The translations under genes and the position numbers were made by a program. A stretch of 44,361 nt of DNA, from assembly GCA_017395215.1 (NCBI GenBank), contig JAFPVW010000195.1, positions 1 through 44,361 on the forward strand. The letters run 5' to 3'. The stretch comes from Prevotella sp. GTDB taxonomy: Bacteria; Bacteroidota; Bacteroidia; Bacteroidales; Bacteroidaceae. Under the pieces are notes generated by a model. The model searched no databases and was not told the origin of the DNA. It saw nothing but the letters and a program-made list of their open reading frames with translations. This document shows, one piece after another, positions 16,964-30,376 of the stretch (its first letter is position 1; each line of letters begins with the position of its first letter).

Positions 16964-19825
16964 TTATAGTTTTTCTTTTAAATAGCGCCCAGTTATACTC
17001 GCCTCGCAACGTGCCACTTCCTCGGGTGTTCCGGCGCAGACGAGCGAGCCTCCGCAGTCGCCGCCGTCGGGGCCAAGGTCAATGACGTGGTCGGCACACT
17101 TGATGACCTCCATGTTGTGCTCGATGATGACGATGGTGTGGCCGCGCTCTATCAGGGCCTCCAGTGATTGCAGCAGTCGGCTGATGTCGTGAAAGTGCAG
17201 GCCGGTGGTCGGCTCGTCGAAGATGAACATTGTCGGCTCCTGCCGCTCCTGACCGATGAAGTAGGCCAGCTTGACGCGCTGGTTCTCGCCGCCCGACAGC
17301 GAGCTGGAGTTCTGTCCGAGCTTGATGTAGCCCAGTCCGACGTCGTCGAGGGGCTTCAGGCGGCTGACGATGGTCTTGTTGCCTGCGAAGAATTCCAGGG
17401 CCTCAGCGATGGTCATGTTCAGCACGTCGTTGATGTTCTTGCCGTTATAGCGCACGTCGAGGATGTCGTGCTTGAAGCGCTGCCCGTGACAGGCCTCGCA
17501 CTCGAGCACGAGGTCGGCCATGAACTGCATCTCGACGGTGATGGTGCCTGCGCCCTTGCACTCGTCGCAGCGGCCACCGTCGGCGTTGAACGAGAAGTAC
17601 TGGCTCGTAAAGCCCATCTGCTGGCTCAGCGGCTGTTCGGCATAGAGGTCGCGTATGGCGTCGTAGGCCTTGACGTAGGTGGCGGGGTTCGAGCGTGTCG
17701 ACTTGCCGATAGGGTTCTGGTCGACAAACTCTATGCGCTTGATGGCATCGATGTCGCCCTCGAGTCCGAGGAACTCACCCGGAGCGTCGCAGACGTCGCC
17801 GAGACGCCGCTTCAGGGCGGGGTAGAGGATGCCCTTGATGACGGTCGACTTGCCGCTGCCCGAGACGCCCGTGACGACGGTCATCACGTTCAATGGTATC
17901 CTCACGTCGATGCCGCGCAGGTTGTTCATGCGCGCTCCTTTAATCAGGATGCTGCGGTTCCAGGGGCGGCGCGACGTTGGTACGGCTATCGTTTCCTCTC
18001 CGTTCAGATACCGCAGAGTGTATGAATCTCCGCCTTTATAGGACGGGGCAGGGGGTAGGCTCCCCTCGTAGACGATTTTGCCACCCAGTCGTCCGGCGTC
18101 GGGACCTACGTCTATCAGGTAGTCGGCGGCACGGATGATCTCCTCGTCGTGCTCGACGACGACCACCGTGTTGCCAAGAGCCTGCAGCTCCTTCAGTACG
18201 TGAATCAGTCGGTCGGTGTCGCGCGAGTGGAGTCCGATGCTCGGCTCATCGAGGATGTAGAGCGAGCCTACGAGCGACGAACCCAGCGACGTACAGAGGT
18301 TGATGCGCTGGCTCTCGCCGCCGCTGAGTGTGTTCGAGAGACGGTTGAGCGTCAGATAGCCAAGTCCCACATCCAGAAGGAATTGCAGTCGCGACGTAAT
18401 CTCGGTCAGCAGTCGTTTTCCCACTTGGGCATCGTGCTCGTCGAGCACCAGGCGGTCGAACCATTCCTTCAGTCTGACCACGGGCATCTGCACCAGGTCG
18501 GTGATGCTGCGGCCGTCAATCTTCACGTACTCTGCCTCGGGCTTCAGGCGCGTGCCGTGACACTTCGGGCAGGTCGTCTTGCCGCGATAGCGGGCCAGCA
18601 TCACGCGGTACTGAATCTTGTACTGGTTGTCCTTCACCATCTGGAAGAAATGGTCGATGCAGGGCTTCTCCTTCTTCCCCTTGTCCGACGGCAGCCCGTG
18701 CCACAGCCAGTCCTTCTGTCGCTGGCTGAGGTTCATGTAGGGCTCGAAGATGGGGAAGTCGTCGTTGGCGGCATGCTGGATGAACCATTGCTGCCACTCC
18801 TTCATCTTGTCGCCGTGCCAGCAGACCACGCAGCCGTCGTAGACCGACAGCGTCGTGTTGGGGATGACCAGCCGCTCGTCGATGCCGATAATCTTGCCGA
18901 AGCCCTGACACTCAGGACAGGCACCGGCCGGCGAGTTGAACGAGAAGAGCTGGTCGGTGGGCTCCTCGAAGGTCATGCCGTCGGCCTCGAAGCGCATGGA
19001 GAAGTCGTAGACGATGTTCGACGGCAGGAACATCAGCCGGCACTCGCCGCCGCCCTCGTAGAACGCCGTCTCGGCCGAGTCGACAAGGCGAGCGATGGTG
19101 TCCTTGGCGTCGTCGACTGACATGCGGTCGATGACGAGGTAGACGGGCCCAGAAGCCCCGGAGGCCCCCGAAGCCCCCCCTACGGCCCCCGAGGGGGCTT
19201 CATTACTGATGCGCGCCAAATAGTCGCTGATTCGGACGCTAGTGTCCCCCCCGGGGGACGAAAGGGGGGCTTCGGGGACTTCGGGGGCTTGTATCCTCGC
19301 ATACCCCTCCTGCATATACGCCTTCAGCTGCTGCTCCAGCGTACGGCCCTCGGGCACTCGGACAGGGGCCATCACTACGAACTTCGTGCCCTTCTGGTAT
19401 TGCAGCATCTGGCGCACGATGTCCTCCGTCGAGTGCTTCTTCACCTCCTGGCCGCTGATGGGCGAGTAGGTGCGGCCGATGCGGGCATAGAGCAGCCGCA
19501 GGTACTCGTAGATTTCGGTCGACGTGCCTACGGTGCTTCGCGGGTTGCGCGAGATGACCTTCTGCTCGATGGCGATGGCGGGCGGAATGCCGCGAATGAA
19601 GTCGCACTCGGGCTTGTTCATGCGCCCTAAGAACTGGCGGGCATAGCTCGACAGACTCTCCACATAACGCCGCTGACCTTCGGCATAGAGCGTGTCGAAG
19701 GCCAGAGATGATTTACCGGAGCCACTGACTCCGGCAATCACCACGAACTTGTTTCGCGGTATGCGCACGTCAACATTTTTCAGGTTGTTGACGCGCGCAC
19801 CCTTTATCTCAATATACTCGTCCAA
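16964..19825 (-). CDS. uvrA: UvrABC excision nuclease subunit A
   Basis: UvrA recognises damaged DNA as a dimer and loads UvrB. The 953 aa protein carries two ABC ATPase units: Walker [13 protein letters not shown] (residue 33 on) and [12 protein letters not shown] (about 650), signatures LSGGESQRI and LSGGENQRV, and zinc modules with [22 protein letters not shown] and CEACHGQRF. Two stretches stand out as low-complexity inserts coded by C/G-rich repeats: residues about 179-225 (APEVPEAPL ... [11 protein letters not shown]) and about 587-600 ([10 protein letters not shown]). Both keep frame. It starts 3 bp after the uxaB stop. Confidence 0.95.
18028..18066. repeat. C/G-rich repeat inside uvrA (second site)
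   Basis: On the minus strand the run AGCCTACCCCCTGCCCCGTC followed by a short AT stretch and GGCGGAG resembles the elements at 24712, 42494 and 42926. It encodes [10 protein letters not shown] in frame, in the second half of UvrA after the first signature and Walker B region. Confidence 0.6.
19153..19290. repeat. 138-bp inverted-repeat element inserted in uvrA
   Basis: The left arm (19153-19179) and right arm (19264-19290) are nearly perfect inverted copies of a 27-base C-rich sequence starting AAGCCCC. They flank about 84 bp that itself holds further C and G tracts. The span is 138 bp, 46 codons, so the UvrA frame is kept. It codes for an Ala/Gly/Ser/Pro-rich insert. Confidence 0.7.
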
Positions 19826-22479: not shown

Positions 22480-25400
22480 TTATGATTGTTCAACTATTTT
22501 GATTTCTTCATCCGTTAAGCCGTAGAGCTGATAGACGAGGCGGTCGATTTCAGATTCTAAGGCCGAGGTGTCGGCTGAAGGATTGGAACGTTTAGCAGAA
22601 AGTATTTTGTCAACCAATTTAATGATTGTTTCCTGCACAACAGACGAACATCCTTTAATGGGTATTTGTGATAGAGGATTATTAAAGTATTCTCTTACTC
22701 TTCCTTTTACTTTTCCAATAAATCCAAAGAACCAATCCATTAATGACGAATTCAATATACCAAGAACATATTTTATAGGGTATTTTTCATTTATAATAAC
22801 AATTGCTCGAATGTCTCCTCCATCATTAAAATACTGACAATCATCATAAGCGAATCTGTTATGCTCAGCTCTATAAGGTACTATGATTTTTTCTTTGGCG
22901 TCAAAAATTTCTTTTCTTCTTGGTCTATCAAATCGATACCATTTATATAAACCTTTAGCCACTTCGTTTCGTCCAATCAAGACCATTTTGTATTGTTCTA
23001 AATAGCTTTTAGCATTTGGATACTTGGTAATATCTGTGTCATTGTCTGTATAAAGCAAACAATTGCCTCGATCTTTAATATAATATTTAAGGACATCTCC
23101 ATTTTTGACGTTATTTCGAACTATTCCAGATTCGAATTTGTTCAATACAGCAAATTCTCTCGGTACAGTAAAGATTTTATTCTTTCCAGATTTTGAGCCT
23201 TGTTCAATTTCTGCAATTTTACCCAATGGAATTGAATCCTTCAGTAATTTACCAATTATAAGTGCGCTATTTGAATTGGCTATAATCCATGTGTTTGTTA
23301 GACTTTCTCTATTAATAACAATGTTGCTAAAGTCAACGTTAAAGTCAATTTCCCCTTTCTTCTTATCATACTTAAAAATATAAAAATGCACATCTGATTC
23401 CTTTACATTATTAGTCGCAAACGATATACAAGTATGAACATTAGCTGATTCAAATATTAAAGCACTATGGAAATTATAAAGTCTCATCAGCTTCTCTTTC
23501 AGAACGTTTCTTAATTTTAAAGCATAGTCATTTCCTAAGAAATAATTAGACGTAATCATATTAAGAATACCATTTTGCTTCAAAATCGAAAGACCATGAT
23601 AGATAAAATAGTACATCAAATCATTGTATCCAGTATGAATCTCTTTATATGATTCCAATTCCTTTGAATATTGTGGAACCTTACTGATATTTATATATGG
23701 TGGGTTTCCTATAACAATATCAAAGCCGCCAAGTGAAAACACGTCAAAGAACCATGTATGCCACAAGAAGAATTGATTATTCTCACTAAGATTAACATCA
23801 ATATCTTTAGGATTTATGTGCTGTTCAACAAGCTGATCCTTTACGTTCTCCAGTATTTGTCTTTTGAGTGATTGTTTTTGGTCATGATTAGTACAATCGT
23901 AGTATTGGGTAATCATAATACGCATATCTCGACGATAAACATCAAGCATGTTGTTAAAAATGGAAAGAGATTCGTTTGCCTTCCATTTTGCATCTGTCAT
24001 CGTTGAGAGGTCAACACCCTTGTATTGCTCCAACAGCGAGTTGCCCTGCATAATCTTGAAGTCGAGGTTTGGCAGAGCCTGCGGGTTTTCTTCGTCTACA
24101 ATCAGAGAGAGCCAGAAGCGAAGGCGGGCAATGTCAACGGCACCACGCTCTATATCTACACCATAGATGTTTTGTTGGATGATGTGCTTTTTGATTTCAG
24201 CGGCTTTGCTTTGTGTAATTCCTTCAAGGGCTGTGCGGCATTGGAAGAGTTCTTTCAGCAGGCCCATTGGGAAAGCTCCTGAGCCAATAGCAGGATCGCA
24301 GATTTTGACATTCTTGAGAGCTTCATCCACTTGCTGACGGAACTTGCCGTTAGTTCCAAGCGCTTTGACATCATGAGTGGTCACGAACTGGCGAATGGCT
24401 TCTTTGGTAGCTTCGTCATCAATATCTGTCTGGAGATAGGCAATCAAGGACTCGCGGCACATATAGCTGACGATTTCCTTGGGTGTATAGAAGGCACCCT
24501 TATCTTTGTTGTCTTCCAGCAGGTTCTCGAAGATACGGCCAAGCATCTCTGGGTCAACACCTACCTCTGCATCGTCAGGATCGTTCTCGTCGATGGTGAA
24601 GTTATACGAGGCAAAGAAGTCGAGCAGGCTTTGCATATATTTCGCAGGCAGAGGAAACGCCGTTTCGTCTGTGGCGTCACGCTCGAACAAGCCTCCGTTA
24701 AGATAAGGGATAAGCCTCCCCCTGCCCCCTCCCAAAGAGGGGGTTGCCAAGTCACCTTCACGCTCTGTATTGAGGTCGTTGAATAGGACTTCAAGTACAT
24801 TGTCTATGAAGTGGTCTTTGTCTTGACAATTAGCAAAGAGGTTCTGGATGAACTCTCTGTCGCCAGTACCCCAAGGTTCACCAGCAGGCACACCCAGCCA
24901 GCCTTTCTTCTGTAGAAACTGGAGGAAGACGAGCCGGCCCATCAGTTTCTTTACATAGTCGCGGACGGCTTTCTCAGGGTTGGGGAAGCGGGCAAACTCC
25001 TGCATGATTTCCTCGCAGGGGTCGTTCTTGATTTGCTCTTCCCATTTGTTGGCCACCTTCACCATCCGCTTACCTGTGATATACTGGATGATGTCCTCGT
25101 ACTGCTTCTTGTAGCCATCGAAGAACATATCGCTGACGGCATCAACAGAGAACGCTTTGGTCAGGTCTCTCAGCGAAAGTTTACTGTCGCGCAGTTTCTC
25201 AAACTGCTGAATGGCGGTACGGCTTCGGTGCCCCTCACCCAGCAGATAGGTAAAGCGCTTGGTGTCAGTAGACTCTTTCTGGTAAGTACCGTCTTCGGCA
25301 AACGCCCAAGCCTCGCTGACATACGAGAAACGCAGCACACTCTCGTTCTTGCGATAGCAGAACATAAAGGCTCCTGCATTACCATTGTTTCGCCAGGCGG

Positions 25401-25659
25401 TCAGCAGCATATCGCGGATGCCCCGCCGGTTACGCTCTATATCAACGCTGTCGGCCAACTCTACTTCATAGACGCTGATTGTTCGCCCGTCACTCAGGGT
25501 GATAGTGCCCAGCCATAGCGCTTGTTTGGCAAACTGACTGCTGGTACCTACTACAGATGGTGTGTGCCAGAATTTAATTTTGTTGCCAAAAATGTCGTGT
25601 AACAGTAACTGCCAGTTCTCACGATTATATCTTGATTCGATAATAGGTCTGTAGTCCAT
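22480..25659 (-). CDS. Adenine-specific DNA methylase with target-recognition domain (Eco57I/type IIG-like)
   Basis: The 1059 aa protein has an N-terminal region of about 350 residues (with GTITLSDGRTISVYEVELAD) of unknown role, a methylase core with the SAM-binding motif DPAIGSGAFPMGLL (about residues 452-465) and catalytic NPPYINI (about 652), and a C-terminal TaqI-like specificity domain (NSSLMDWFFGFIGKVKGRVR). It should methylate adenine in a specific site, or act with the helicase next door in restriction. The C-terminal part from about 22600 to 23990 is strikingly AT-rich compared with the N-terminal part. Residues about 304-316 (LATPSLGGGRGRL) come from a C/G-rich repeat. It lies 5 bp after the helicase gene. 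Confidence 0.85.
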   Translation of the reverse strand: MDYRPIIESRYNRENWQLLLHDIFGNKIKFWHTPSVVGTSSQFAKQALWLGTITLSDGRTISVYEVELADSVDIERNRRGIRDMLLTAWRNNGNAGAFMFCYRKNESVLRFSYVSEAWAFAEDGTYQKESTDTKRFTYLLGEGHRSRTAIQQFEKLRDSKLSLRDLTKAFSVDAVSDMFFDGYKKQYEDIIQYITGKRMVKVANKWEEQIKNDPCEEIMQEFARFPNPEKAVRDYVKKLMGRLVFLQFLQKKGWLGVPAGEPWGTGDREFIQNLFANCQDKDHFIDNVLEVLFNDLNTEREGDLATPSLGGGRGRLIPYLNGGLFERDATDETAFPLPAKYMQSLLDFFASYNFTIDENDPDDAEVGVDPEMLGRIFENLLEDNKDKGAFYTPKEIVSYMCRESLIAYLQTDIDDEATKEAIRQFVTTHDVKALGTNGKFRQQVDEALKNVKICDPAIGSGAFPMGLLKELFQCRTALEGITQSKAAEIKKHIIQQNIYGVDIERGAVDIARLRFWLSLIVDEENPQALPNLDFKIMQGNSLLEQYKGVDLSTMTDAKWKANESLSIFNNMLDVYRRDMRIMITQYYDCTNHDQKQSLKRQILENVKDQLVEQHINPKDIDVNLSENNQFFLWHTWFFDVFSLGGFDIVIGNPPYINISKVPQYSKELESYKEIHTGYNDLMYYFIYHGLSILKQNGILNMITSNYFLGNDYALKLRNVLKEKLMRLYNFHSALIFESANVHTCISFATNNVKESDVHFYIFKYDKKKGEIDFNVDFSNIVINRESLTNTWIIANSNSALIIGKLLKDSIPLGKIAEIEQGSKSGKNKIFTVPREFAVLNKFESGIVRNNVKNGDVLKYYIKDRGNCLLYTDNDTDITKYPNAKSYLEQYKMVLIGRNEVAKGLYKWYRFDRPRRKEIFDAKEKIIVPYRAEHNRFAYDDCQYFNDGGDIRAIVIINEKYPIKYVLGILNSSLMDWFFGFIGKVKGRVREYFNNPLSQIPIKGCSSVVQETIIKLVDKILSAKRSNPSADTSALESEIDRLVYQLYGLTDEEIKIVEQS
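24712..24750. repeat. C/G-rich repeat inside the methylase gene
   Basis: AAGCCTCCCCCTGCCCCCTC followed by AGAGGGGG resembles the elements in uvrA and in the carboxyltransferase operon. It is read in frame as ATPSLGGGRGRL just before IPYLNGGLFE. Confidence 0.65.
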
Positions 25660-25664
25660 AAGGC

Positions 25665-28600
25665 TTAGTTATTTTGAAAACTCTCTGCAAGAATGATGAC
25701 GGCATCAGATTCCTCTTCTGCACGCTGGCTCTCGCGATAATAGGTATTGTATTTGATGGCCATGTCGAGCACCTGTTTCAAGGCGTCTTCGAAGGTCAGT
25801 TTCGCCTTGCTGCCTCCCTGGCGCTGCAAGTCCTTTTGTATACGCTGCAGACGTTTGGCGATATAGGTGATGGTGCCTCGCTCTGCCAGTTCCTTCAGTT
25901 GGATAATCTTCAGGCGCGTATCGCCATCGTCAATGTGTGGCAGCATACTGTTGAGCAGACTGACCGCTGTCGTGACCTGAGCACCAAGATTGCTGCGCTG
26001 GTTCTGGTTCGATTCTTCCTCATGGAGTTCCTGCTCCTTGGTTTTGTTGAATTCCTTCATGGCCTTCTCCACGTGCTCATGGTGCTGGTCAATTCTTGGC
26101 ACAGCCTTCTCTTCAGGCTGAGCCTTGAAATAGTTCAGCGCATCGAGCACGGACAACTCGCGTGTCTGTTGGTCGTTCACTAGATAGAACAGCTTTCGGA
26201 AGTTGGTCTTGAGGAATACCAGTGAGTCGCCCGACAGTGTAACGCCATCAAACTCACGGGGTTCGCGACCGGTACGGCTTCTTACTGGCAGCCTTTCTAT
26301 GCGCTTATATTCCTTACGGTTCTGCTGATAGAGTGCCCGCAATTCTTCATAGAACGGCAGTTCCAGATTACGGTCTTCCTGCTCGCGCTTGATGCCCTGC
26401 TGAAAGAGTTTGTCGAGGTCACGGTCAATGATTTCCTCTGTAGAATATATCTGATTGTCCTCGCCAAACGTCGTGTGGAAGGTCTGAATCTTACTCAACG
26501 CTATCTGGTTGAGCTTGATTTCCTTGTTACCCTGACGCGACGGGTAGAATACATAATTGTAGATGATGCCAGCCGTAGAACCGATACGGTTCACACGTCC
26601 GATACGCTGCATCAGTCGCGTAGAGTTCCAAGGCGTATCGTAGTTGATGATGATGTTCGACCGATGCAGGTTCACGCCCTCTGCCAGCACGTCTGTAGTC
26701 AGGATGATGTTATAGTCGTCCTTCTTCTGTTTCCAGTTGGCATCGAAGTTCTCGCGGATGGTCTTGAACAAATGGCTACGGTTCTGGGAGGAAATCACCA
26801 ATATGTCTGGACGGTTTATACGACGCTGCAGGTATTCTACCGTATCTACCGATTCTGAGAACACCACAATCTTACCCTCCGGGTTGCGACTCTTCTTGAA
26901 CAGCTCATGCTTCAGCAGGTCTTCGAACTTGGCAAACTTCGAGTCGTCGTCATCGTCAATGTATTCCCAGTCCAGCCACATGTCGTCAAGCAATTTCTGA
27001 TCTTGATGAAGCATGTCAATATATTCAGGGCGGAAATCCTCTCGCTTGAACACGGCATTCTTCGGATTGGTCTCTGACTTTTGGTTCAGTTTCTCTTCAA
27101 TCTCGTCGTCCGTATAGCCCTGCGCATAAAGCAGGTTGATGTCCATATCGGGAGCAATGAATATTTTGTCGTTCTCCCACATGGTAATCATGTTCTCGTT
27201 GGCCTGACGGAAATTCTCAACAGAGATTTTGAAGGCATAGAAGCTGCTCTCCAGACGTTTCACCAATCCGTTCTTACGGATACCGGCCAGACTGCGGCTG
27301 ATAAGCTCCGCATTATCGTAAAGACCATTCGAGGCCTCGGGCTTCAGATAGGCGATGGCCTGATAGCGTGCATAGGTCAGCTCTTGGTCAAGCACGTGCA
27401 TGGCCTTCTCAAAGAGGTTGGCCAAGTGGTCGTTCAGCTCGTATTCCTTCTTGATGGGCTTATCCACTTTTGGGAACCCGTTCACATCTTTATTATAGCG
27501 GGCGATGTTCTCGATGTCGGTTCGTGTACGGCGGACGGTCAGAGGCTTGATCACCCTGTCGCGCACCCGCTCGGCCAGCTTCTTGAACTCCTTCAGGTCG
27601 AAGCCCTCCTGCTTGCGGAACTTACGGAACTCAACCACCAGAGGCGAGAAGAAGGCCGTCAGGTTAGGCACGCCATCGATGGTGCAATGACGCGGGTCTT
27701 GGAACATCAGTATCTGGTTGTAGATGTCTGCCGGCGTGTTATTCATAGGCGTTGCCGATATCAGCATCACTTTCTTCTTATAACCTGGGATATAGCCCGT
27801 CTCCAAGCGAGGCATCTTGCAGATTTCCTGTAACTGATTGAAGGCGCCAGTCGTATGATTGCGGAACTTGTGGGCCTCGTCCACCAGTACTAAGTCGTAT
27901 TCGTCGGCATTCCAATAGTTGTAGTCGTTCTCGTCGAGCACTTTGCCAAGGCTGCCGTTGCTGACGAACTGGGTGTATTTGTCGATGCCGAAGTCATGGA
28001 AGGTCGTCTTCCAGTTCTGTTCTACTGCCGGAGGATAAACCACCAGAATCTTGGTATGCTCAGGGCCGTTATCTATCAGGAATTTCTTGGCTATCATCGT
28101 AGCAATGACCGTCTTGCCGAGACCAACTACATCCGCAAGAAAGAATCCGTCGTAGCGTATCAGCTTCTGATAGCCCTCAACGACGGCATCAGCCTGATAG
28201 TCGAACTTGCTATAGCCTTCAGGCATGTCGAAGGGGTCATCCTGGTCGATGGCCAGCACGCGGTCGCTGAAGTATTCCATCAGCATCTTGATATACAGTT
28301 CGTAAGGGGTGACGTCGCCTTTCAGGTAGGTCCCGCCAATTGTTCCGTCGATATCGACAGCCTCAATAGGTACTCCTTCGGCCTCTTTCCAAAGCAGCTC
28401 AAATTCTGTTCTCGCAAAATCCACGTCGGGGAATCGGGTAAGTTTGACGTTGAACTCATATTGCTTGTCTTCAGAAATACCAAGCCCGTAACCACTCAGA
28501 TTACTGCTGCCCGTGATAGCAGCACCCAGCATGTCCTGGTCATAATTGTCTGGATAGAGAATGTAAATCTTGGCATGAATCTTTCTCGATGGGTGGGCCC

Positions 28601-28991
28601 GCATCTCCAACTTGCCATCCTTCATGTCCTGCAGCATCTGCAATATGCCATCCTCTACTTGCTTGGTATATCTGGAACTCTCAATATCTGCCTTTATCTG
28701 TTTCAGCGCGTCCTCCTTCACCTCTTCCTCAGCACCAATAAACAGTTCCCTGTGCTGGGCTGCACGGGCTATGTATTTGTCTACGTCGATGCCAATCAGT
28801 ACGCGTACCTTATTAATATGATCAAGAAAGGGGCGCAAGGCAAAATAGCCTGATGCACGGAGGAAGCCCACAACAGCATCAAGATTCTTGATTTGGGGGT
28901 TCTTGCTCAAGAAGCCCTCAAACTGTTTCATCAATGTGTTCCCTTCTCGATTGGTAAAGAACAGGGAATTAGTAGTAACGTTGTCTGCCAT
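25665..28991 (-). CDS. PLD-nuclease/SF2 helicase fusion of a restriction-like system
   Basis: The 1108 aa protein begins with a phospholipase D-like nuclease domain: the HxK motif in KIHAKIYIL (about residue 136) followed by TGSSNLSGYG. A superfamily 2 (SNF2-like) translocase comes next, with motif I ADVVGLGKTVIA (about 288), motif II LVDEAHKFRN (about 370), motif III LISATPMNNTP (about 412) and motif VI RLMQRIGRVNRIGS (about 797). The C-terminal 200 residues are helical and rich in Glu and Lys. With the methylase it resembles a type ISP-like restriction enzyme split over two genes, with a PLD nuclease; that is inference. Start MADNVTTNSL at 28991. Confidence 0.85.
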   Translation of the reverse strand: MADNVTTNSLFFTNREGNTLMKQFEGFLSKNPQIKNLDAVVGFLRASGYFALRPFLDHINKVRVLIGIDVDKYIARAAQHRELFIGAEEEVKEDALKQIKADIESSRYTKQVEDGILQMLQDMKDGKLEMRAHPSRKIHAKIYILYPDNYDQDMLGAAITGSSNLSGYGLGISEDKQYEFNVKLTRFPDVDFARTEFELLWKEAEGVPIEAVDIDGTIGGTYLKGDVTPYELYIKMLMEYFSDRVLAIDQDDPFDMPEGYSKFDYQADAVVEGYQKLIRYDGFFLADVVGLGKTVIATMIAKKFLIDNGPEHTKILVVYPPAVEQNWKTTFHDFGIDKYTQFVSNGSLGKVLDENDYNYWNADEYDLVLVDEAHKFRNHTTGAFNQLQEICKMPRLETGYIPGYKKKVMLISATPMNNTPADIYNQILMFQDPRHCTIDGVPNLTAFFSPLVVEFRKFRKQEGFDLKEFKKLAERVRDRVIKPLTVRRTRTDIENIARYNKDVNGFPKVDKPIKKEYELNDHLANLFEKAMHVLDQELTYARYQAIAYLKPEASNGLYDNAELISRSLAGIRKNGLVKRLESSFYAFKISVENFRQANENMITMWENDKIFIAPDMDINLLYAQGYTDDEIEEKLNQKSETNPKNAVFKREDFRPEYIDMLHQDQKLLDDMWLDWEYIDDDDDSKFAKFEDLLKHELFKKSRNPEGKIVVFSESVDTVEYLQRRINRPDILVISSQNRSHLFKTIRENFDANWKQKKDDYNIILTTDVLAEGVNLHRSNIIINYDTPWNSTRLMQRIGRVNRIGSTAGIIYNYVFYPSRQGNKEIKLNQIALSKIQTFHTTFGEDNQIYSTEEIIDRDLDKLFQQGIKREQEDRNLELPFYEELRALYQQNRKEYKRIERLPVRSRTGREPREFDGVTLSGDSLVFLKTNFRKLFYLVNDQQTRELSVLDALNYFKAQPEEKAVPRIDQHHEHVEKAMKEFNKTKEQELHEEESNQNQRSNLGAQVTTAVSLLNSMLPHIDDGDTRLKIIQLKELAERGTITYIAKRLQRIQKDLQRQGGSKAKLTFEDALKQVLDMAIKYNTYYRESQRAEEESDAVIILAESFQNN

Positions 28992-28996
28992 ATTTC

Positions 28997-29041
28997 TGAT
29001 TGATAGTTATTGTTCTATAATTGGCACCTGACTATCAATCA
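28997..29041. repeat. 11-bp inverted repeat in front of the helicase start
   Basis: TGATTGATAGT (28997-29007) and ACTATCAATCA (29031-29041) are a perfect inverted repeat with a 23-nt loop, ending 5 bp before the helicase ATG. It could be an operator or a translation-blocking hairpin. No promoter box is visible between it and the upstream terminator. Confidence 0.7.
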
Positions 29042-29052
29042 CGCCACGACGC

Positions 29053-29073
29053 AAAAAAGGTGTGAAGCACCTT
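29053..29073 (-). terminator. Intrinsic terminator of the structured RNA
   Basis: On the minus strand AAGGTG-CTTCA-CACCTT is followed directly by a T-run. It separates the structured RNA from the helicase gene. Confidence 0.75.
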
Positions 29074-29372
29074 ATTGCGTATAGCTATGAGGCAGCGTAG
29101 GAAGGAAACCTCATCCCATCTAATAAGTATGCAACACACCGAAGCGCGATTGCATCACTATAAATAGATGGGAAAGATGTCCTGTCCAGACACCTATCCA
29201 GATATTATTTCTGTGCGATATTTATTTCCAAACAGTTTCCTACGCTTTTGGCTATACGCGAAATAATAGCTGATGCTATGATTAACCAACAAAAATCATA
29301 CCGCCACCCTGCACTCAGGGATTCCTGCCTCGTTGAGGCTTGCGCCGTTTGCGGCGCTTTCGGCAATACTTG
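29053..29372 (-). ncRNA. Unrecognised structured RNA, about 320 nt
   Basis: A -7 box at 29385-29378 and a terminator at 29053-29073 frame a gene-free minus-strand transcript. The 5' part folds as a closed multi-branch: 29370-29363 pairs with 29306-29299, enclosing three hairpins (GCGCCG/CGGCGC, GCCTC/GAGGC, CCCTG/CAGGG). The 3' part is a long nested arm: 29259-29251 with 29085-29077 (9 bp), 29246-29237 with 29103-29094 (10 bp), 29172-29165 with 29122-29115 (8 bp) and an inner hairpin capped by C(UUCG)G. The pairing starts within 2 nt of the predicted 5' end. I do not recognise it; it is neither tmRNA nor RNase P RNA by their conserved ends. It could be a free RNA or a leader controlling the helicase-methylase operon. 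Confidence 0.65.
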
Positions 29373-29377
29373 ATTGC

Positions 29378-29385
29378 AAAGTTAC
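29378..29385 (-). promoter_or_regulatory. -7 box for the structured RNA
   Basis: TAACTTTG on the minus strand fits TAnnTTTG. The predicted transcript start (about 29372) falls right at the closing stem of the RNA. The -33 box is weak. Confidence 0.5.
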
Positions 29386-29474
29386 GAATTCTTTTGGAAA
29401 CTAAAAAAGAAAAACGGGAAAAAATGATTATTGTGTACACAATAGAGTCATTCCTGCTGTGTACTTTTGGGCAC

Positions 29475-29595
29475 TTTCCCTCAAACCCTCACTTCCCTCA
29501 CCTTTGAGGGAGAAGTAAGAAACACGGTGGAATGGGACTTTCAGGCGATTCTGACTGTTTCCCGCAGGGTGAGGGAAGTGAGGGTTTGAGGGAAA
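29475..29595. repeat. 121-bp element with perfect 28-bp terminal inverted repeats
   Basis: The arms 29475-29502 and 29568-29595 are exact reverse complements, starting TTTCCCTCAAACCC and ending GTTTGAGGGAAA. The 65-bp middle has no gene. Size and shape suit a MITE-like element or a large hairpin. It lies between the structured RNA and the toxin-antitoxin pair. Confidence 0.85.
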
Positions 29596-29608
29596 CTCTA
29601 CTTTGAGC

Positions 29609-29665
29609 TACCCGGCGGGTAGAGCGCTTCAAGCCGGCGGGTTGAGGCGCTTTACCCGGCGGGTA
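29609..29665. repeat. Three 22-bp-spaced hairpin units TACCCGGCGGGTA
   Basis: TACCCGGCGGGTA occurs at 29609-29621 and 29653-29665, with the variant AAGCCGGCGGGTT at 29631-29643 midway. The spacing is exactly 22 bp and the linkers (GAGCGCTTC, GAGGCGCTT) are related. Neighbouring units can also pair with each other. It lies 40 bp after the antitoxin stop codon and may end its transcript. Confidence 0.75.
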
Positions 29666-29704
29666 CATGCAATCTGGAAGGGGAACCGACACCCAAACCG
29701 ACAT

Positions 29705-30019
29705 TCAGCACAAAGCAACCCTGCCCAGTTTGTCGATATCCAACTTTACACCAATGTTCATTGCCTTGAATAGTTTCAATACGGTGGCAAAAGTAAGGTT
29801 CTTCCCATTCTCAATACGAGAAATCTGGGCCTTTTGAACACCGACCAACTGTCCCAATTCTTCTTGGGTAAGATTCTGCTTTATTCGAGTTTCTCTGATG
29901 GCTGCACCAATTGCATATAGTTTTATTTCTTCCTCATAGGCATCACGCTCGGCAGTGCCTGGTTTTCCTATCAGCATGTCCTTGGACTCTTCAAGGGTTA
30001 TGAAATCTTTCTTTTCCAT
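29705..30019 (-). CDS. XRE-family antitoxin (HigA-like)
   Basis: The 104 aa protein has a helix-turn-helix at about residues 37-91: AIGAAIRETRIKQNLTQEEL, then VGVQKAQISRIENGKNL. It would bind and neutralise the upstream toxin and repress their shared promoter, as known for HigA and related antitoxins. The toxin gene comes first with a 12-bp gap, which is the HigBA order. The N-terminal 35 residues (MEKKDFITLEESKDML) may be the toxin-wrapping part; this is inference. A 28-bp palindrome upstream of the pair is the likely operator. Confidence 0.85.
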   Translation of the reverse strand: MEKKDFITLEESKDMLIGKPGTAERDAYEEEIKLYAIGAAIRETRIKQNLTQEELGQLVGVQKAQISRIENGKNLTFATVLKLFKAMNIGVKLDIDKLGRVALC

Positions 30020-30031
30020 ATCGTTATCTTT

Positions 30032-30376
30032 CTATTTGTTTCCAAAATATATGTTTCTAATTGCAATTGCCCTGTCTATCTCCTTTTGAGGTGTTTTCTG
30101 GGTTTTCTTGATAAATCCGTGAGTAGCAATCACCAAAGTCTCCACAGGTTGTGTCTTGTCCCAGAATGCAAGCATCCTGTATTTTTTCTTGTTATAATAT
30201 GTACGAAATTCCCATATGTCAGTATCTGCAAGTTTCTTGAAAGCTTCTGCGTCAAGTAACAGACTTGCCTTGTCGAAAGTCTGGTATATCTTCTTGCGTG
30301 TCTTATCATCAAGTCTTGCAAGAAACTCCTGAGCTTCTCGATACAAAATGACATTGAATTTTTTCTCTATCTCCAT
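30032..30376 (-). CDS. RelE/HigB-type toxin (Gp49-like)
   Basis: The 114 aa protein matches the RelE/ParE-fold toxins of the HigB/Gp49-like family: FNVILYREAQEFLARLDDKT at the start, WEFRTYYNKKKYRMLAFWD in the middle and VIATHGFIKKTQKTPQKEI near the end. The last motif (HGFxKKTxxxP) is typical of this family, whose members cut mRNA on the ribosome. It is the first gene of the pair, 22 bp behind its -7 box. Confidence 0.87.
   Translation of the reverse strand: MEIEKKFNVILYREAQEFLARLDDKTRKKIYQTFDKASLLLDAEAFKKLADTDIWEFRTYYNKKKYRMLAFWDKTQPVETLVIATHGFIKKTQKTPQKEIDRAIAIRNIYFGNK

Follow-up and report, generated by a model that had tools for sequence, protein, structure and literature searches.

A conserved pseudoknotted leader RNA, predicted to act as a transcription attenuator, upstream of restriction-modification genes in Bacteroidales

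The window, a 44,361-nucleotide stretch of Prevotella sp. DNA, carries on its minus strand a highly structured RNA. With a probability of roughly two in three, we read it as the 5′ leader of the helicase-methylase operon behind it and as a cis-acting, riboswitch-like attenuator of transcription. Judged from the sequences, its relatives share one architecture (helices P1-P7 and two pseudoknots) set between a promoter box and a terminator, upstream of restriction-modification (R-M) and related genes. The RNA appears to be a structured attenuator leader, an element of a known kind, and to represent a new class with new targets.

The leader and its family

The original prediction described a gene-free stretch of about 320 nt that starts at a TAnnTTTG box and ends in a terminator, and both signals are present on the minus strand, at 29382-29375 and 29073-29053. 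The elements that define the locus are:

29375..29382, minus: promoter box TAACTTTG (TAnnTTTG), read from the sequence
29298..29369, minus: exchangeable 5′ module, a predicted fold with closing stem 29369-29362/29305-29298 and three hairpins inside (29357-29342, 29339-29327, 29320-29307)
29053..29076, minus: intrinsic terminator P9, stem 29073-29057, U-tract to 29053
25665..28991, minus: SNF2/ResIII-type helicase gene behind the leader, PLD-type and restriction-like, related to PADLOC HKD+Snf2 models
22480..25659, minus: Eco57I/Type IIG-like methyltransferase, second gene of the operon, by protein profile matches

We take the box to be a Bacteroidota −7 promoter element, from which the transcript start is estimated at about 29371-29368. 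The terminator reads AAGGTG-CTTCA-CACCTT-TTTT, and 61 nt separate its U-tract from the first start codon of the operon (28991). The predicted extent of about 320 nt was right for the leader and its terminator but too short for the whole unit, which includes a covarying hairpin that reaches this start codon. In a check for leader peptides, the sole ATG open reading frame (ORF) of at least 10 codons on the RNA strand had 11 codons.

The 328-nt stretch 29372-29045 folds with a minimum free energy (MFE) of −119.8, compared with −88.1±4.7 for 100 dinucleotide shuffles, none of which was as low (z=−6.75). The other strand reaches almost the same stability (z=−5.7), as expected where inverted repeats abound; the strand is therefore assigned by promoter box, terminator and gene direction and not by energy alone. 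The predicted closed branch with three short hairpins appears in folds that start at 29371, while the MFE structure of 29372-29045 keeps two of the hairpins and lacks the closing stem.

A BLAST search with the leader stretch found relatives in 73 genomes out of 399 from the window's own taxonomic family. A covariance model built from 28 leaders (R1; matches counted at E≤0.01) matched 99 of the 399 family genomes and 22 of 393 genomes of the order, the window's own genome being in both counts, so that the Bacteroidales search proposed with the original prediction did uncover a family. Among 296 phylum-wide genomes R1 returned the window's own genome and one 18.8-bit match, which is taken as chance. 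The exact core motif occurs in at least 119 stretches, mostly from metagenome-assembled Prevotella, Prevotellaceae, Bacteroidaceae and Muribaculaceae, and many of these records come from the rumen or other gut compartments; the motif is also present on a contig of Prevotella ruminicola strain KHT3, a cultured species.

Two strong copies exist in the window's genome, one in the window itself and one at L106 (EcoRI-type); two further copies, L003 and L360 (19.8 bits), are diverged. By eye, L003 precedes a Type III res-mod operon. L030 and L003 combine the window's 5′ module with a much diverged 3′ arm, and the genes behind them are Type III mod-like and res. L360 represents a third, diverged subtype (minus strand, 1501-1700 and 1302-1508); the 69-aa ORF behind it matches HTH_26 below the cut-off (20.8 bits; cut-off 22).

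As in the original prediction, the RNA could not be matched to a known family: Rfam 15 gave no match at the gathering threshold, to T-box leaders or to any other family, in the window, 20 loci and 20 further loci. Relaxing E to 10 gave 14 matches below threshold in the window; 13 fall at 29416-29600, and the remaining one, to a snoRNA (12.9 bits), lies within the RNA. The literature matches listed include no paper on a leader of this type, and passages of a 2010 paper on 104 candidate RNAs lack the words restriction, methyltransferase and Prevotella. A phage- or plasmid-borne element was considered and dropped, as phage and plasmid collections gave no match; one exact pattern of the RNA was likewise without a match in viral contigs.

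For comparative analysis we assembled 159 loci, including the window and its second copy, and dropped L105 (17.6 bits), leaving 158. The R1 matches omitted were the ten weakest family places (G330:C30, G010, G049:C17, G351, G391, G324:C4, G380:C65, G308, G234 and G068:C80), an antisense row and four order places. The leaders were split at 113.8 bits into 73 high- and 85 lower-scoring ones; L150 and L151 (114.4 bits) were moved by hand to the lower group for their 5′ sequence, and L146-L148, which have a similar 5′ sequence (116-117 bits), stayed in the high group. Alignment A1 comprises 28 of 30 prepared leaders (L020 and L024 omitted; L003 and L030 set aside before). Alignment A6 comprises 57 leaders, taken from the 59 of 68 high leaders that passed the spacing filter, with L147 and L149 omitted.

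The transcript signals recur across this sample. A TAnnTTTG box lies no more than 170 nt upstream of the core in 66/73 high and 64/85 lower leaders, compared with 55/790 mononucleotide shuffles. By pattern, a terminator-like site precedes the coding region in 66/73 high and 80/85 lower leaders (146/158 in all; mononucleotide shuffles 43/365 and 55/425), as expected of a riboswitch-like attenuator.

The 5′ ends differ. Regular expressions assigned 46 of the 73 high leaders a short hairpin with a GGAGAAAU-like loop, 15 an ACATATT element, 6 an end in TTTTTGTnGG as in the window, and 6 something else. The closed branch of the window is thus a separate 5′ module that is swapped between leaders, and the conserved unit consists of 3′ arm, terminator and pre-AUG hairpin.

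Several neighbouring features lie outside this unit. A long, nearly perfect inverted repeat (TCCCTCAAACCCTCACTTCCCTCACC...) at 29477-29593, upstream of the RNA promoter, has sub-threshold miRNA matches in Rfam, and beside it, by eye, three copies of a CCCGGCGGGT / GCCGGCGGGT-like motif occupy about 70 bases (29600-29670). Further upstream of the leader is a gene pair encoding an HTH and a Gp49-type protein (29705-30376), presumably a HigBA-like toxin-antitoxin system. The R-M operon and a gene for a sigma-70 factor flank a UvrA-like ABC ATPase gene (16964-19825). As a retron test, nine neighbouring proteins were scanned and no reverse transcriptase was found among them.

A pseudoknotted core with competing helices

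The predicted long arm, a set of nested stems capped by C(UUCG)G, was recovered as P1, P2, P3, P6 and P7 at 29259-29077, with the cap at 29144-29139. Its elements, with pairing frequencies and pairs changed on both sides taken from A6, are:

29077..29259, minus: core arm, closed by P1, then P2 and P3, by covariation
29259-29251 with 29085-29077, minus: P1, 99.6% paired, 5 pairs with double changes
29245-29239 with 29101-29095, minus: P2, 100% paired, 6 double-change pairs
29230-29225 with 29108-29104, minus: P3, 82% paired, 5 double-change pairs
29260..29267, minus: 5′ strand of pseudoknot PK1, AUUAUUUC, just 5′ of P1, pairing with 29211-29204
29204..29211, minus: 3′ strand of PK1, GAAAUAAU, in the P4 loop, by covariation and duplex scan
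29088..29113, minus: pseudoknot PK2, UGAGG (29113-29109, 3′ of P6) with CCUCA (29092-29088, between P2 and P1), 99.2% paired, 3 double-change pairs
29175..29195, minus: P5 hairpin, 29195-29187 with 29182-29175, by covariation and duplex scan
29114..29173, minus: P6, variable stem bearing P7, 29173-29165 with 29122-29114, z=−14.9 in the duplex scan
29129..29156, minus: P7 tip hairpin, 29156-29144 with 29140-29129, UUCG loop, covarying
29122..29140, minus: antiterminator strand, the P7 3′ strand and its flank GGUGUGUUGCAUACUUAUU, which can pair with 29076-29059 and covaries

In A1, 90.7% of the cells of the proposed structure pair, compared with at most 44.2% when the pairing is slid, and 29 pairs change on both sides. 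For P1, P2, P3 and the two pseudoknots in A6 the corresponding values are 95.7% and at most 46.5%, with 22 double-change pairs; none of 500 column shuffles, which leave the relatedness of the leaders in place, reached any of the measures. The check for base-pair covariation suggested with the original prediction therefore gave a strong result, and the leader has the conserved structured core expected of a riboswitch-like attenuator. A small AGC/GCU hairpin at the start of the core was dropped, being invariant in the R-M group and broken elsewhere (ACU for GCU). RNAalifold pairs GCUAUUA with GAUAGU, a possible alternative with almost no variation.

In PK1, 95.8% of cells are paired and three pairs show double changes; L017 and L026 carry a one-base deletion on one strand and the matching deletion on the other. 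Many of the PK1 changes are from U-A to U-G, which only RNA tolerates. This weighs against a DNA-level element, such as an operator or recombination site whose inverted repeats merely look like RNA. At the start codon, GATTGATAGT/ACTATCAATC form a perfect inverted repeat that would suit such an element, but exclusive pairing partners and a strand-specific promoter box and terminator would not, and we regard it as the least credible of the explanations considered.

Alternative pairings were sought by a duplex scan over 741 pairs of alignment windows, in which 29 of the 57 rows of A6 were scored as matched and after permutation. The scan recovered P1, P2, P3, P4, P5, P6, P7, P9, PK1 and PK2; in addition, the P7 3′ strand was seen to pair with the terminator (z=−5.3 and −4.7). 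Several pairs outside any proposed helix also reached z of −4 to −6 (columns 113-129 with 205-222, z=−6.2); such values are therefore no proof, and the P7-terminator pairing was tested separately. In R-M-type leaders the 5′ arm, loop and first 3′ bases of the terminator (AUAAGGUGCAUCACGCC) approximate the reverse complement of GGCGUGRUGCAUUCUUAU, the P7 3′ strand and flank.

Over all 158 leaders the energy of this antiterminator was −18.46 kcal/mol for matched and −13.59 kcal/mol for permuted strands (z=−20.2, 0/5,000 permutations). P7 itself was similarly favoured (−13.06 versus −9.67, 0/5,000), while the P7 5′ strand with the terminator gave no signal (589/5,000). A reversed-terminator control gave a smaller signal than the antiterminator (−10.06 versus −9.15, z=−6.1, 0/5,000). 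To thin the sample by identity, leaders with very short P7 segments were removed before filtering. The antiterminator signal persisted in 23 leaders below 65% identity (z=−7.8, 0/5,000; reversed control z=−2.1, and −5.3 at n=63) and in nine below 60% (z=−5.1, 0/5,000); with four leaders below 55%, 214 of 5,000 permutations reached the observed value. Thinning also left the covariation of P7 supported.

Column by column, pairing reaches 97.9% and 94.2% in the first two (inner) helices of the antiterminator, where 7 of 9 pairs carry double changes, and 75.5% in the third (flank) helix. The whole structure is 87.6% paired compared with 85.9% in shuffles, and 0/500 shuffles matched it on any measure. 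Compensatory sets between the P7 3′ strand and the terminator include GGCAUAGG/CCUAUGCC (L172), GGGUAUGA/UCAUACCC (L143) and GGUGUG/CACACC (window and L110). By eye, L003 also seems to keep the complementarity, as CGUGGAC/GUCCACG.

The inner stem of the terminator found no covariation support in the columns of A6, where it is 76.7% paired, 120 of 500 shuffles are as high and a slide of +3 gives 90.1%. The register of this stem varies among leaders, and its covariation support comes solely from a register-free duplex test (−12.21 versus −9.82, 0/2,000). Further combinations gave little: the P7 5′ strand with the strand after the terminator had no signal (z=+1.5), and the terminator with the post-terminator strand a weak one (z=−1.9, 99/3,000).

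P7 and the antiterminator covary and share one strand, which is the signature of a switch. The P7 3′ strand has two possible partners, the 5′ strand of P7 and the terminator, making a mutually exclusive terminator/antiterminator pair and providing the competing helix expected of an attenuator. Predicted energies in the window are −11.6 kcal/mol for P7, −20.3 kcal/mol for the antiterminator and −14.0 kcal/mol for the terminator. The antiterminator spans P1-P6, so that it would have to be a pseudoknot unless the arm opens.

The start-codon hairpin and the genes behind the leaders

A further hairpin ties the RNA to the gene behind it:

28998..29040, minus: P10 hairpin, GAUUGAUAGU (29040-29031) with ACUAUCAAUC (29007-28998), just before the AUG at 28991, covarying

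In A6, 91.9% of P10 cells are paired, with 5 double-change pairs (0/500 shuffles). A duplex test over the 91 of 158 leaders in which the strand was located by script, the other 67 being set aside, gave z=−10.0. Compensatory exchanges include GAUGAUAGC/GCUAUCAUC in L161 and GAUGAUAGAU/AUCUAUCAUC in L192. Since its 3′ strand abuts the AUG, P10 is a plausible translational brake. Pairing of the GCAUY at the 5′ end of the core with the P10 strand and loop gave no signal (−6.70 observed, −6.71 permuted, 1,019/2,000).

An ORF of at least 100 aa starts within −60 to +120 nt of 68 of the 73 high leaders. By Pfam, EcoRI_methylase accounts for 51 of the 68; two are HSDR_N proteins, two SNF2/ResIII helicases, and C5 DNA methylase, N6_N4_Mtase, N6_Mtase, DUF4268, RNase_T and LRR_5 occur once each. 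PADLOC adds one Type IIG enzyme. Among the lower leaders 69 of 85 have a proximal ORF, 21 of them EcoRI_methylase. Other R-M families there are MmeI (4), N6_N4_Mtase (4; four Type III by PADLOC), SNF2 (3), D12 methylase (2), Tsp45I (1) and C5 (1), next to Acyl_transf_3 (6), Sulfatase (4), MBOAT (1), Peptidase_C10 (1) and others; these are from the matches listed, which cover 25 of 53 Pfam families. The acyltransferase-like genes and the membrane/sulfatase-like genes (L093, L160, L161, L168, L169, L196; L103, L111, L159, L193) possibly serve cell-surface modification. In two EcoRI-type operons that were read further, a GmrSD_N-HNH endonuclease gene follows the methyltransferase.

The original placement of the leader in control of the PLD-helicase and methylase genes is supported by its position in the window and across the family. 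The suggested co-occurrence with the helicase gene holds in that helicases do follow the RNA, but they are only one of several kinds of R-M gene that do so. The same spread bears on the idea that the RNA is a cofactor (a ribonucleoprotein component or guide) of the encoded enzymes. High-scoring RNAs mostly adjoin nucleic-acid enzymes, which speaks for such a role; against it, the neighbours are unrelated to one another (EcoRI-type, C5, Type I-, IIG- and III-like enzymes, acyltransferases and sulfatase-fold proteins), which makes it very improbable.

The RNA could instead act in trans, as a free-standing non-coding RNA of about 320 nt whose place upstream of defence genes is incidental. Against this, the distance from the end of the model to the chosen ATG is 10-70 nt in 59 of the 68 high leaders that have an ORF, the covarying P10 abuts the start codon, and the neighbour is mostly an R-M gene. 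On the other side, the RNA has its own promoter box and terminator, and at least 16 of the 85 lower leaders form a subtype with a 5′ GCATTAGCTTATT that keeps the P7-terminator pairing and by eye has no P10. Eleven of these 16 have an ORF of at least 100 aa nearby, several with starts that look signal-peptide-like by eye, and five have none starting within −60 to +120 nt. The independent RNA entertained in the original prediction is therefore less likely for the window copy, which P10 and spacing tie to its gene, while the subtype shows relatives that do without these features; for the family as a whole we consider a trans-acting RNA unlikely.

The reverse count gave 26 EcoRI_methylase places in 24 of 198 order genomes. 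An R1 match lies in front of nine, eight at 53 bits or more and L223 at 21; in front of the one at L226 a diverged relative was recognised by eye. The upstream DNA was viewed at 18 of the 26 loci, and 16 of the 26 have no RNA by R1 or by eye (L236 and L237 judged by R1 alone). At three loci a short HTH_3 ORF (67-85 aa, Pfam-confirmed) directly upstream of the methyltransferase replaces the leader, and the remaining RNA-less loci have neither:

L220, 1272-1481: HTH_3 ORF
L221, 426-626: HTH_3 ORF
L238, 2653-2907 (minus): HTH_3 ORF

These ORFs may act as controllers. No controller HTH gene lies directly upstream of the window's R-M gene; the sole HTH gene nearby (29705-30019) is upstream of the RNA promoter.

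Proposed switching and relation to known control systems

We infer the direction of switching, the toehold, an effect on translation and the existence of a ligand as follows. With P7 closed, the terminator would form, a short RNA of about 320 nt would be released and the genes would be off or low. The first nucleotides of the terminator, AAUAAG, could nucleate on the P7 flank CUUAUU and displace P7 by toehold invasion, whereupon the antiterminator would form and transcription would go on into the genes. The pseudoknotted core would set the winning state, through ligand binding, protein binding or folding kinetics. PK1 places the base of P1 close to the P4 loop, which may help the antiterminator, as a pseudoknot, to form. 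P10 would hide the bases before the AUG and so add a translational brake.

A passive attenuator, which keeps R-M expression low and noisy and senses nothing, would agree with paper abstracts and with passages of two R-M reviews that describe this expression as tightly regulated (PMC3874152, PMC12707154). A fixed attenuator would need less than a core of about 180 nt that is both conserved and pseudoknotted, and less than two helices that covary and exclude each other; we hold this reading possible but not favoured; it overlaps with the attenuator reading preferred here, so that the odds of the two do not add. More speculative is an extension of the cis-acting attenuator to a new riboswitch class across Bacteroidales. 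Such a class would turn on Type I, II, IIG and III R-M systems together with cell-surface-modifying enzymes (acyltransferases and sulfatase-fold transferases, which might change phage receptors). All of them would answer to a common signal, such as a metabolite or nucleotide indicating infection or DNA stress. A widespread conserved leader with a built-in terminator/antiterminator would place innate immunity in gut and rumen Bacteroidales under a new layer of control, and would help in asking what these cells measure before arming restriction. With the covariance model, the switch strands and the compensatory variants, the switch can be tested directly in vitro.

Riboswitches and orphan candidates with terminator expression platforms combine a pseudoknotted core with an exclusive terminator/antiterminator, upstream of functionally related genes. 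The leader RNA shares the core, the exclusive pair and the position before related genes. It differs in that its switching strand lies in a tip hairpin inside the core and not in the closing stem, in having no Rfam 15 match, and in its targets, which are mostly R-M genes. Leaders dependent on processive antitermination (put, EAR, UpxY/LoaP) are also structured and act on termination, and are known for surface polysaccharide operons; our leader is likewise structured and would act on termination, but has a single adjacent terminator with its own covarying competitor strand.

Among R-M systems the closest counterpart in position is the C (controller) protein of Type II systems: the leader occupies the same place upstream of EcoRI-type methyltransferases and would likewise control R-M operons, with RNA in place of an HTH protein. 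Passages of the two reviews describe R-M control through controller proteins, antisense RNA, promoter methylation and limits on translation; the word riboswitch does not occur in either review, and 'attenuat' occurs once, in one of the two (PMC3874152, PMC12707154). For EcoRI and Eco29kI they describe control by antisense transcripts or by hairpins at the translation start (PMC3874152, PMC12707154). The likeness to those systems is control of R-M expression at the level of RNA; only the leader described here is a conserved structured leader with predicted attenuation.
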